A stretch of 64,000 nt of DNA from Jiella avicenniae (lineage in GTDB: Bacteria; Pseudomonadota; Alphaproteobacteria; Rhizobiales; Rhizobiaceae): positions 1 to 64,000 of the forward strand of contig NZ_JAJUWU010000013.1 of NCBI RefSeq assembly GCF_021390325.1. Reading direction: 5' to 3'. Under the pieces are notes generated by a model. The model made no database searches and had not been told where the DNA came from. It saw only the letters and a list, made by a program, of their open reading frames with translations. Of this stretch, positions 259 to 11,397 are shown piece after piece. How positions within the stretch are numbered: position 1 is the stretch's first letter; the number at the start of each line of letters is the position of its first letter. A program made the translations under genes and the position numbers.

Positions 259-588
259 ATGTCAGCACAGCACGAAATCGCGAAGCTCGATCGCCAGCTC
301 GCCGCCAAGGGCGAACCGGTCGTCTTCAAGCGCGTCGTCTTCGAGACCGGCACGGAGCAGGACGTCCCGACCCGCGCCTTCATCCGCGGCGCCACGCCGG
401 AGGAGATCGCCGCCGGCATCGACGTTCACACCTCCCGCATTGTCCTTTCCCCCACCGGCCTCTCCGGCTTCATCCCCAAGGAAGGCGATCAGCTCCTCGT
501 CGCCGGCTCGCCGCGCTCCGTCACTGTCGCAGAGACACGCCGCATCGGCGAGCACATCGTCCGCTTCGACCTGCAGGCGGCCGGCTGA
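259..588 (+). CDS. small phage-type structural protein upstream of HNH gene
   Basis: A 109-residue protein of unknown function. I chose the ATG at 259 because GGGAG lies at 250-254; an in-frame ATG at 226 would add an Arg-rich stretch with no such signal. The sequence starts with a short charged helix and continues as alternating hydrophobic segments that look beta-rich. That is compatible with the small beta-barrel fold of head-tail joining proteins, but I see no family motif. Its TGA overlaps the ATG of the HNH gene, so it is translationally coupled to the packaging module and probably belongs to it. Confidence 0.6.
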   Translation: MSAQHEIAKLDRQLAAKGEPVVFKRVVFETGTEQDVPTRAFIRGATPEEIAAGIDVHTSRIVLSPTGLSGFIPKEGDQLLVAGSPRSVTVAETRRIGEHIVRFDLQAAG

Positions 589-1082
589 TGGCTCGCCCGA
601 CCGCTCGCCAACGCGGCTATGACAGCAAGTGGGAGCGCGCCCGCGCCGCCTTCCTCGCCGCGCATCCGTGGTGCCGCCGCTGCGAGGCGATGGGCAGGCT
701 CCATCGCGCCACCGTCGTCGACCACATCGAGCCTCACAAGGGAGATCACAAGCTCTTCTGGAAGCGGAGCAATTGGCAGCCACTCTGCGCGCCGTGCCAC
801 AACAGCGACAAGCAGCAGGTGGAGCGGCGAAGCTATACCGCTCGCATCAATGCAGACGGCTTTCCGAGCGATCCTGCGCATCCTTTCAATCGATCCTGTG
901 CCGAGCAGCCCGACGAGACGAACGCGCGTCACGCGGCAACTTCGAGCCGTGGCAAGCATGTCATCTGCAACCACGAGACCCGGGGGGCATCGAAAGTCGC
1001 CAATGATGGGGCCTCCGGACCGGCGTGGGGGAAGCGAAAAGAATTAGTTCGCCTCCGCGGGCTCTGCGGGAGGGCTGGCTGA
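588..1082 (+). CDS. HNH endonuclease of the packaging module
   Basis: Predicted HNH nuclease, 164 residues. A zinc-knuckle pair CRRC near residue 28 is followed by the HNH core VVDHIEPHKGD, then WQPLCAPCHNSDK with the second CxxC. HNH proteins beside the large terminase are required for DNA packaging cleavage in HK97-like phages (established knowledge). The core ends near residue 85. The remaining ~75 residues are polar, low in predicted structure and longer than usual for this group. The stop codon overlaps the start of the terminase gene (TGATG), and no small terminase gene lies between them. Confidence 0.88.
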   Translation: MARPTARQRGYDSKWERARAAFLAAHPWCRRCEAMGRLHRATVVDHIEPHKGDHKLFWKRSNWQPLCAPCHNSDKQQVERRSYTARINADGFPSDPAHPFNRSCAEQPDETNARHAATSSRGKHVICNHETRGASKVANDGASGPAWGKRKELVRLRGLCGRAG

Positions 1083-2743
1083 TGGGACTGCGTGGTCCAG
1101 GCGCTCGCCGCATGAAAGAGGCAAGAGCCGCCCTTCCGGCTCGCAAGCGTGTGCTTCCGTGGCAGCGGAAGGGGCTGACGCGTGCCGAGCGGGTGATCCG
1201 GTTCCTGCAATGGCTGCCGATCACGAAAGGCCCGCTTGCCGGCAAGCGCATGCGGCTTTTGCCGGAACAGCGCGAGTTCGTGACCGAGATCTATGGCGAT
1301 CTCGATGAGAAGGGTCTCCGCCGCCGCCGGATCGGCATCAAGAGCGAGCCGAAAGGCAACGGCAAAACCGGCCTCTGCGCTGGCCTTGTCCTGTGCCATC
1401 TCCTCGGGCCAGAGAGCGAGCCCCGTGGTGAGGTCTACAGCGCCGCCGTCGATGGACAACAGGCCGGCATCATCTATGCCGAGTGCGAGGCGATCATTGC
1501 CCAAGTGCCGGAGTTCGCCGCCCGGGTGAACTGCACGCGTTTTCACAAGCGGCTCGAGGTGCTCTCCGGTGCCGGCGCCGGCAGCATTTACGCGGCAATG
1601 TCAGCCGATGCCCGAAAGGGCCACGCTATCGCCCCGAGCCTGTTCGTCTTCGACGAGCTTGCACAGGTGCCAGACCGCGAGCTTCTCGATAACCTTCTGA
1701 ATGGCCTCGGCAAACGAAAGGAAGCGCTCGGGCTGATCATCTCGACGCAAGCGCCGGATGACAATCACGCCCTGTCGCAGATGATCGATGACGGGCTTTC
1801 GGGCGCCGATCCGAGCATCTTCGTCCAGCTGATTTCAGCGCCGCCGGAGGCCGATCCCTTCGCGGAAGCGACGTGGTTCGCCTGCAATCCGGCGCTCGGC
1901 AAATACCTGTCGGTGAAAGAGATGCGCGAGGCCGCAGCACGCGCCCGCCGCATCCCGGCTTTCGAGCCAAGCTTTCGCAATCTTCGCCTCAATCAGCGCG
2001 TCGACGCCCGCGAGGACAACCGCATCGTGACCGCAAGCGTGTGGAGGGCCGGAGCGGTGCCCGTCGATCGTGAGTCCTTGCGCGGCCGTGTGTGCTTCGG
2101 TGCGCTCGACCTTTCCGGCAAGCACGACCTGACGAGCCTGACGCTCGCCTTTCCCGACGACGATCCCGAACCGACCTTCGACGTTCTGCAATTCTGCTGG
2201 ACGCCGGAGGGACAGCTTGGCGGGCGCCGCCCGGCCGAACAGGAGCGGTTCCGCGAGTGGATCGCCGCCGGCCATATCGCCGCCGTTCCCGGGCCGACCA
2301 TCCGCTACGGCTTCGTCGCCGCCGAGCTGGTGAAGCTCTCCGCGGAGTTCGATCTCCAGGTGATTGGCTTCGACAGATGGAGGATCGACGATTTCCGGCA
2401 GGATCTGCAGGAGGTCGACGCGAACTTCCCCGTGCCGCTCGAGCCGTTCGGCCAAGGCTTCAAGGAGATGGGTCCGGCCGTCGACTGGTTCGCCGAGCTC
2501 GCACTGACTGGCCGGATCCGCCACGGCGGCAACCCTGTCCTCACTGCCGCGGTCGCAGGCGCGATCACCGATAGCGACCCGGCCGGCAACCTCAAAATCG
2601 CAAAGGACAAATCGAACGGCCGGGGGCCGGTTCGCATCGATCCCGCCGTGACGCTCGTGATGGCGCTCGAGCTCTGCAAACGCTTCGAGGCCTCGCCGAA
2701 GGTCGATGTCTCGGACTTCCTCTCCAGCGTGGTATTCGCCTGA
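1082..2743 (+). CDS. terL: phage terminase large subunit
   Basis: Packaging motor ATPase and nuclease, 553 residues, HK97-type (Terminase_1 family). The start at 1082 overlaps the HNH stop and gives the typical N-terminus MGLRGPGARR; an earlier in-frame ATG at 1025 has no support. A Walker-A-like loop SEPKGNGKT lies at residues 88-96 and a Walker B motif LFVFDELA near 187-194. The C-terminal RNase-H-like nuclease half starts at GALDLSGKHDL and contains FDRWRIDDF. It would dock on the portal and translocate DNA into proheads. The TGA overlaps the portal ATG by one base. Length and motifs look intact. Confidence 0.95.
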   Translation: MGLRGPGARRMKEARAALPARKRVLPWQRKGLTRAERVIRFLQWLPITKGPLAGKRMRLLPEQREFVTEIYGDLDEKGLRRRRIGIKSEPKGNGKTGLCAGLVLCHLLGPESEPRGEVYSAAVDGQQAGIIYAECEAIIAQVPEFAARVNCTRFHKRLEVLSGAGAGSIYAAMSADARKGHAIAPSLFVFDELAQVPDRELLDNLLNGLGKRKEALGLIISTQAPDDNHALSQMIDDGLSGADPSIFVQLISAPPEADPFAEATWFACNPALGKYLSVKEMREAAARARRIPAFEPSFRNLRLNQRVDAREDNRIVTASVWRAGAVPVDRESLRGRVCFGALDLSGKHDLTSLTLAFPDDDPEPTFDVLQFCWTPEGQLGGRRPAEQERFREWIAAGHIAAVPGPTIRYGFVAAELVKLSAEFDLQVIGFDRWRIDDFRQDLQEVDANFPVPLEPFGQGFKEMGPAVDWFAELALTGRIRHGGNPVLTAAVAGAITDSDPAGNLKIAKDKSNGRGPVRIDPAVTLVMALELCKRFEASPKVDVSDFLSSVVFA

Positions 2744-11197: not shown

Positions 11198-11219
11198 GGG
11201 CGTCCCGCGAGGGGCGCCC
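11198..11219 (+). terminator. terminator-like hairpin after small gene
   Basis: A nine-pair stem (GGGCGTCCC with GGGGCGCCC, including one G-T pair) around a GCGA tetraloop, 44 bases after the stop of the small gene. The following sequence TTCCATTGTC is only moderately T-rich, so termination efficiency is uncertain. Confidence 0.5.
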
Positions 11220-11321
11220 TTCCATTGTCTTCGTTCTGGAACCCTGTCGGAACCCCAGAGCAAAATTGGGGCGCAAGTCAGATGCATAAGCGGCGGTAGA
11301 TACTGAATTTGTTGGCCTTTT

Positions 11322-11397
11322 TGGTGGGCGCGCAGGGACTCGAACCCTGGACCTACAGATTAAAAGTCCGTTGCTCTACCAACTGAGCTACGCGCCC
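11322..11397 (-). tRNA. tRNA-Lys (anticodon TTT)
   Basis: Read on the minus strand, the 76 bases start GGGCGCGTAGCTCAGTTGG and end with the encoded CCA. The acceptor stem GGGCGCG pairs with CGCGCCC, the anticodon loop contains ACTTTTAAT (TTT, lysine) and the T arm carries GGTTCGAGTCC. The 3' end faces the phage-like element, the arrangement expected when an integrase uses the 3' part of a tRNA gene as attachment site. The matching second copy of the 3' end would lie left of the window. Confidence 0.96.

Follow-up and report, generated by a model that had tools for sequence, protein, structure and literature searches.

A head and packaging module beside a tRNA-Lys gene of Jiella avicenniae, probably part of a capsid-forming satellite that would use helper phage tails

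The stretch of DNA analyzed here (the window), 64,000 nucleotides from Jiella avicenniae (G000:C52:1-64000, where G denotes a genome, C a contig and L, below, a locus), starts at the very beginning of a contig of 94,073 bases, so that its left border is an assembly edge. Near this edge, it carries a head and packaging gene module that is followed by cargo genes and a tRNA-Lys gene. As a working type, this region is likely to be the right-hand portion of an integrated, capsid-forming phage satellite that takes the tails of a helper phage. Under the scheme that we propose from the sequences, a satellite of ∼15.2 kb plus an unread gap would integrate at tRNA-Lys with its own integrase, and would package its own DNA with a head of HK97 type, a portal and a large terminase that it encodes itself. 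A neck protein and a terminator of the kind found in tailed alphaproteobacterial phages would allow helper tails to be capped and attached; the tails would come from the helper, and an AlpA-family regulator would serve induction.

The module consists of eleven open reading frames (ORFs) on one strand at 259-8828, with neighbors at most 4 bases apart or overlapping; a 59-base overlap at the capsid ORF arises only with the first of the possible capsid starts. Genes were called from the ORF list and matches to Pfam and PHROG profiles, and tRNAs with ARAGORN.

259..588, plus strand: Hc1, weakly head-closure-like (phrog_161, E 0.0088), displaced upstream of the HNH gene
588..1082, plus strand: HNH endonuclease (PF01844, 3.7e-7; phrog_2323, 5e-38)
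1082..2743, plus strand: large terminase TerL (PF20441, 1.8e-31), ATG at 1082, with a longer ORF from 1025
2743..3993, plus strand: portal protein (PF04860, 5e-97)
3996..4691, plus strand: prohead protease (PF04586, 4.6e-37)
4633..5955, plus strand: HK97-type major capsid protein (PF05065, 4.2e-58), start possibly at 4702
5958..6194, plus strand: 78-amino-acid protein in the capsid-adaptor interval, present in L079-L081 (weak match to phrog_21804, 0.0017)
6199..6819, plus strand: head-tail adaptor Ad1 (phrog_442, 9.9e-27)
6819..7772, plus strand: zinc-ribbon/HNH-like protein (phrog_1271, 4.7e-17), 96% identical to a G006 protein
7774..8418, plus strand: gp10-like neck protein Ne1 (phrog_16336, 3.6e-34; phrog_169, 3.5e-4)
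8415..8828, plus strand: tail terminator Tc1 (PF13554, 5.1e-7; phrog_179, 5.1e-10)

All the head and packaging ORFs are intact, and no tail tube, tape measure or lysis gene is recognizable in 259-8828. An earlier note on this DNA had described intact HNH, terL, portal, protease, capsid, connector, neck and tail-terminator genes with tight overlaps, in a module that ends at 8828 with no tail, lysis or tape-measure gene and is followed by cargo and then by the 3' end of tRNA-Lys; the ORFs and profiles bear out this description, except that the gene list of the note lacked the zinc-ribbon/HNH-like gene at 6819-7772. Three named genomes contain the same head genes, with protein identities of 69-80% across TerL, portal, protease and capsid (76-79% for TerL and 77-80% for the portal in L079-L081), and because of this recurrence the module appears to be more than a chance assemblage.

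The right end of the element is marked by the integration site and one attachment (att) repeat:

11322..11397, minus strand: tRNA-Lys(TTT), the integration site, found by ARAGORN, with its 3' end towards the module
11320..11367, no strand: attR, 48 bases of the 3' side of tRNA-Lys, repeated at G000:C50:126632-126679 (attL)

The repeat on contig C50 is the best other match in the genome to the 3' side of this tRNA, with 44 of the 48 bases identical, compared with 27 of 48 in the best of 20 shuffles of the C50 stretch; no whole tRNA was detected by ARAGORN in L016, which covers the repeat. Inwards from the repeat, C50 encodes a tyrosine integrase (PF00589, 3.8e-20), a 196-amino-acid protein, an AlpA-family regulator (PF05930, 3.1e-6), a 159-amino-acid protein and a RepA-like ATPase (AAA_25, PF13481, 1.1e-29). 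The contig stops 3,855 bases past the repeat start, within a repeated sequence that shares 96 identical bases with C51:114-209 and also has a counterpart on C4 (77% identity), and that we take to be an insertion sequence (IS) of the IS3 type. The earlier note had predicted, to the left of the module, a second tRNA-Lys 3' end as attL along with an integrase, an AlpA-like regulator and a primase, and had held that tail or lysis genes immediately to the left would speak against a satellite. The repeat, the integrase and the regulator are indeed present, on the unjoined C50, the replication gene is RepA-like, and there is no tail match in the readable 3.9 kb of this contig. We infer that C50 and C52 belong to one element because of the att repeat, because the same pairing occurs in G002, where an integrase (96%) and the attL repeat lie on one contig and a Tc1 fragment lies beside tRNA-Lys on another, and because L121, a 16.8-kb contig, joins a related integrase with TerL, portal, protease and capsid genes. 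Host synteny was rejected as proof of the left junction: the region downstream of tRNA-Lys that is common to G005, G007 and G008 is absent at C50.

A capsid scan of genome contigs detected seven loci, three of them at 74-78% identity (L079, L080 and L081); of their hosts, Aureimonas phyllosphaerae and Enterovirga rhinocerotis belong to the Hyphomicrobiales within the Alphaproteobacteria. When the 397 genomes of the order were searched with TerL, 11 had a match, one of them being the genome of the window itself; five others were examined, and G770, which was left unclassified, is not counted here. The relatives with repeats at their ends are:

L079, Aureimonas sp. Leaf427: direct repeat of 17 bp at tRNA-Arg(CCT), 17.0 kb
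L080, Enterovirga rhinocerotis: direct repeat of 18 bp at tRNA-Arg(TCT), 18.5 kb
L081, A. phyllosphaerae: exact direct repeat of 51 bp at tRNA-Gln(CTG), 18.45 kb
G741: 18-bp repeat at tRNA-Met, 18.1 kb
G895: 16-bp repeat, 16.2 kb, TerL broken

For L079, a 19-bp repeat that lies immediately outside the tRNA, at 2327-2345 and 19084-19102, offers an alternative end. The elements in L079, L080, L081 and G741 are att-bounded, lie at four different tRNA genes, and each encode an unbroken terminase, an integrase and regulator-type genes. G964 combines an integrase with the module, with no att repeat found, and G990 is a contig-edge case in which the module reaches tRNA-Lys. An AlpA-like label given to an 81-amino-acid protein of G006 was withdrawn for lack of a Pfam match.

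To look for tails, reference proteins were taken from phages P1 and K, from the phage contig L173 and from the C48 prophage of the window's own genome, and were compared with the ORFs in nine elements and in eight tailed controls. L173 is 42.8 kb long, and the 20.7 kb read from it include a tail-tube-like gene and encode a tape measure of 1429 amino acids. The nine elements were selected by us as being of this kind and are a non-random sample; G000 (with its gap), G006 and G990 are partial, and G964 lacks a known end. A tail tube was found in all eight controls, including all six that supplied no tube reference, and in none of the nine elements, four of which are incomplete or do not have both ends. 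A match in G741 (4e-4) was taken as chance: the ORF has 60 residues and lies on the minus strand, overlapping a gene called on the plus strand. The absence of chaperone, tip, fiber and lysis matches in the elements is weak evidence because few controls matched these references (4, 4, 1 and 2 of 8, respectively). In addition, no tail tube, fiber or lysis family was detected among the 35 PHROG-scanned proteins, a subset of the ORFs, of L079, L080, L081, G741, G964 and G990. The two features of a complete siphovirus that we considered, a major tail protein and a tape measure, were not found in the window copy, the C50-C52 gap being unread. The earlier note had allowed that homologous loci might all be full prophages with tail genes; the lack of a credible tail tube in L079, L080, L081 and G741 shows otherwise.

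A decayed siphovirus prophage that lost its tail, lysis and replication genes, while the head operon was kept by chance or through usefulness to the host, is an unlikely alternative, and some of the observations that weigh against a satellite fit it. The RepA-like gene on C50 is cut by the IS-like repeat, and for this reason the window copy may have lost replication. TerL is broken in G895 and only the terminator fragment is left in G002, so that decay does happen in kin. Furthermore, TerL (77%) as well as portal and capsid (64%) are shared by L093, a contig that has both a tail tube and a tape measure and that nests among the elements in all three trees. In the trees, a single branch (93/94) separates the capsids of the elements from those of the control phages, 12 rows being left unassigned, and the portals of the elements fall in two places; the head lineage passes between satellites and tailed phages, and the trees do not establish a single satellite origin. 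What decay does not readily account for is the presence of the same truncated set of open frames in three named genomes and in G741, at four different tRNA genes, together with the signature of purifying selection in the structural genes, with ratios of nonsynonymous to synonymous substitution rates (dN/dS) of 0.09-0.41 in 19 of 20 comparisons (a rough Nei-Gojobori estimate, with several dS values near or above 1). The earlier note also preferred a satellite to a decayed prophage, and this preference is supported, although its argument, that every gene is intact, is weak alone; a better argument is that one and the same truncated module is found again and again at tRNA genes that differ.

A small complete phage, with tail genes hidden in the C50-C52 gap or too divergent to be recognized, is considerably less probable still. 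The gap is real, as the ends of C50 and C52 do not overlap and more genes could lie between them, and the tip, fiber and lysis references were of low sensitivity, as indicated above. However, in L079, L080, L081 and G741 the sequence runs unbroken between the att sites and shows no tail tube, and the PHROG-scanned proteins of the relatives include tape measures and no tube, fiber or lysis family. A gene transfer agent cluster, an idea that draws on the alphaproteobacterial relatives and the HK97-type operon, given that such agents occur in Alphaproteobacteria, is highly improbable, because gene transfer agent clusters typically carry tail genes and are not known to have an integrase or att sites, whereas here there are an att repeat, an integrase, several integration sites and no tail genes. 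The other points that count against the satellite interpretation are that no small terminase was recognized among the window proteins in the Pfam and PHROG scans; that the terminator compared with that of L080 has a dN/dS of 0.67, the lone outlier of the 20; that the host side of C50 gave just two ∼50-base matches to nine tRNA-Lys loci, so that synteny provided no link; and that the terminator of the C48 prophage falls in the same PHROG as that of the window with no alignable sequence, leaving no clear helper.

How such an element might engage foreign tails is suggested by its neck and terminator. Among named phages, the top-ranked TerL matches are at 38%, the neck protein has one weak match, and the terminator has none. 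Searched alone in viral contigs, the terminator gave 19 pattern matches, with no relative among them. Closer similarity was seen in L173, which has a neck protein 55% and a terminator 61% identical to those of the window, compared with 46-47% for portal and capsid and no credible alignment for TerL. The prophage of G045, which encodes a tube (6.8e-119) and a tape measure (1.8e-207) of the L173 type, shows 58% identity in the terminator and 45% in the neck, with no match to portal, capsid or adaptor. The two loci of G166 show 54% and 45% in the neck and 41% and 55% in the terminator, G1092 shows 50% and 43% in neck and terminator, and G111 is more distant (31% in the neck). The TerL proteins of the G045, G166, G1092 and G111 prophages are distant from that of the window (25-28%) or unalignable. 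Because neck and terminator are close to those of tailed phages whose TerL is distant or unalignable, this combination suggests that the docking interface is matched to a group of helpers, a correlation rather than a demonstration. Such an interface is not universal in the family, as L079, G741 and G964 yielded no neck or terminator match. Counterparts of Hc1 occupy the same place in L079 and L080, and in L173 and G166 homologs of it immediately precede the neck gene.

Of the 57 genomes with a portal match, G017, G111, G140, G067, G009 and G166 were annotated in full besides the window's own, and G243 and G026 were left out; of the 14 with a neck match, G166, G045 and G1092 were looked at besides G000 and G006; 80 TerL loci were kept of 429 relatives, and 13 of these were annotated. 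Of the 35 loci in the TerL clade L093-L127, 17 have a TerL match that starts within 114 bases of the contig end; these positions may be physical genome ends near TerL or simply assembly breaks. One stretch of a portal-match genome (G017:C37:66548-86920) holds two capsid and two tape-measure genes in 20 kb, possibly two adjoining phage modules. The C48 prophage (∼82-109 kb on its contig; L054-L056) is a tailed prophage of siphovirus type that encodes TerL, portal, capsid, adaptor, terminator, a tail protein and a tape measure, the last 37-46% identical to that of the G006 element.

Six of the nine elements encode a tape measure, and the window copy lacks one as far as its two contigs extend, the gap being unread. 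The lengths are 1110 amino acids in G006, 646 in L079, 765 in L080, 1017 in L081, 869 in G741 and 804 in G964. Four of these six proteins were themselves among the references, so that independent support comes from profiles: PF06791 (1.2e-13) and PHROG matches in L081 (phrog_16823, 1.8e-50), L079 (4e-46), L080 (phrog_24, 4.5e-30), G741 (5.6e-31) and G964 (3.8e-24). The tape measure of L081 has a weak match to a baseplate hub and a peptidase in its C-terminal part. The tape measures of tailed relatives have 1429 (L173), 1422 (G045) and 1252 (C48) amino acids, and because those of G067 and G140 have 709 and 666, satellite tape measures are ‘shorter' only in comparison with the L173 group. The tape measure appears to be less constrained than the capsid, because dN/dS is 0.49 for the tape measure and 0.21 for the capsid between L100 and G964, and 0.63 for another pair of tape measures. 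In the window and in G006, the zinc-ribbon genes (96% protein identity) end in an identical stop-start junction, past which the next gene is that of the tape measure in G006 and that of the neck protein in the window.

These observations can be combined, tentatively and with somewhat less than even confidence, in a model of virions that are hybrid at two levels. The satellites would join to their own head a neck and a terminator, both copied from the group of tailed phages that they parasitize, and most would add their own, often shorter, tape measure, so that the helper tube, tip and fibers would be assembled at a length set by the satellite and defenses targeted at the tape measure would be avoided; the window copy would be a variant without a ruler that uses that of the helper.

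The closest known counterparts are the capsid-forming phage-inducible chromosomal islands (cf-PICIs) of the EcCIEDL933 type, which likewise encode their own PF05065-type capsid, protease, portal, connectors, HNH protein, TerL, integrase and regulator and no tail; the head and packaging gene set without a tail is described in passages of PMC10690885 and PMC13230959. In the window, capsid, protease, portal and connectors, HNH protein and TerL are accompanied by no tail genes, the gap aside, and on the unjoined C50 there are an integrase with an att repeat, an AlpA-type regulator and the interrupted replication gene. The known parts of the element on C50 and C52 sum to 15,222 bases plus the gap, compared with ∼15 kb for cf-PICIs and 17.0-18.5 kb for the relatives. 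The differences are that the window has no recognized small terminase (L080 has one, at 16642-17730; PF20901, 4.9e-13; phrog_1482, 1.1e-11) and that Hc1 lies upstream of the HNH gene; this likeness was judged from descriptions rather than from sequences. The earlier note's identification of a cf-PICI holds for the gene features other than the small terminase; strict membership would also involve that terminase and induction by a helper. According to the legend of Extended Data Fig. 10 of PMC12987554, a sample of cf-PICIs encodes putative tape-measure genes.

The tape-measure-bearing relatives could resemble the phage-inducible chromosomal island-like elements (PLEs) of Vibrio cholerae in combining their own tape measure with the tube and fibers of the helper. 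PLE satellites build such chimeric tails, as a passage of PMC12987554 describes for PLE11; the idea of a satellite tape measure in a chimeric tail is therefore already in print, and its application to the present elements is our inference. Unlike PLEs, which use helper capsid proteins, the window-type elements encode their own head, and the satellite-encoded tape measure of a PLE-like chimeric tail was not found in the window. The Streptomyces satellites MulchRoom and MiniFlayer also have their own capsid and packaging genes, and the tail of MulchRoom is attributed to its helper; they lack primases and parasitize virulent phages, according to a passage of PMC10690885, whereas RepA-like or primase genes and AlpA are present here. 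Temperate siphophages of the HK97 type (Mesorhizobium phage vB_MseS-P1 and Klebsiella phage ST13-OXA48phi12.4) share the head gene order and have homologous capsids and portals (47-53% identity for the portals), but both carry a tail tube and a tape measure, and vB_MseS-P1 also carries tip, fiber and lysozyme genes.

Complete, att-bounded capsid-forming satellites are hereby placed in named Aureimonas and Enterovirga strains. The titles and abstracts surveyed mention no such elements in Aureimonas or Enterovirga, and published lists of cf-PICIs may already include them. The exchange of an Hc1-Ne1-Tc1 neck set independently of the head offers a hypothesis for how a satellite head could recognize foreign tails, and natural elements with and without a tape measure on related heads could make the role of the PLE tape measure comparable in a satellite with its own capsid.

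Between the module and tRNA-Lys lie three cargo genes:

8975..9490, minus strand: 171-amino-acid protein with no Pfam, PHROG or PADLOC match
9600..10313, minus strand: collagen-like protein (PF01391, 2.7e-7)
10561..10860, minus strand: 99-amino-acid protein with relatives in the G006 and G741 elements

The last of these is 88% identical at the DNA level to G006:C75:196038-196304, which lies between the module and tRNA-Gln, and matches G741 with an E-value of 3.9e-12. A 69% DNA-identical relative of the collagen-like gene is found at G009:C23:373661-374356, ∼5 kb past a lysozyme gene that belongs to a tailed prophage. PADLOC, run on the cargo and C50 proteins, gave only a weak mads_8 match, to the RepA-like ATPase. 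The zinc-ribbon protein had no IMG/VR match and was dropped as a family marker, with hits at E 1e-20 in 2 of 385 genomes of the class, including that of the window.

A protein of 224-260 amino acids is encoded directly after the tape measure in four elements (L081:15009-15791, L079:15175-15942, L080:15417-16091 and L030:9302-10054); the L079 and L081 copies have no Pfam match, and two copies match phrog_13702 weakly. For a 222-amino-acid protein of L081, the predicted model was all-helical and too poor for use (predicted local distance difference test score, pLDDT, 48). Other islands also adjoin tRNA-Lys genes. In L026 (G007:C79, ∼6,967-17,143), an island of 10.2 kb is flanked by tRNA-Lys on one side and by a copy of the 3' end of this tRNA on the other; it encodes a related integrase (E 5e-223) and has no match to the capsid-module references. 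A second island, in L030 (G006:C42, 3524-15545), with no capsid gene in its readable 12 kb, encodes a protein that resembles a large terminase of a different type (phrog_2, 3.8e-17), a tape-measure-like protein of 573 amino acids (34% identical to that of L173; PHROG 5.4e-5) and a 250-amino-acid protein. Finally, a stretch of ∼30 bases at 10786-10817 of the window recurs across genomes of the genus, with at least three of the recurrences (G006:C42, G009:C10 and G007:C28) within ∼200 bases of a tRNA match.

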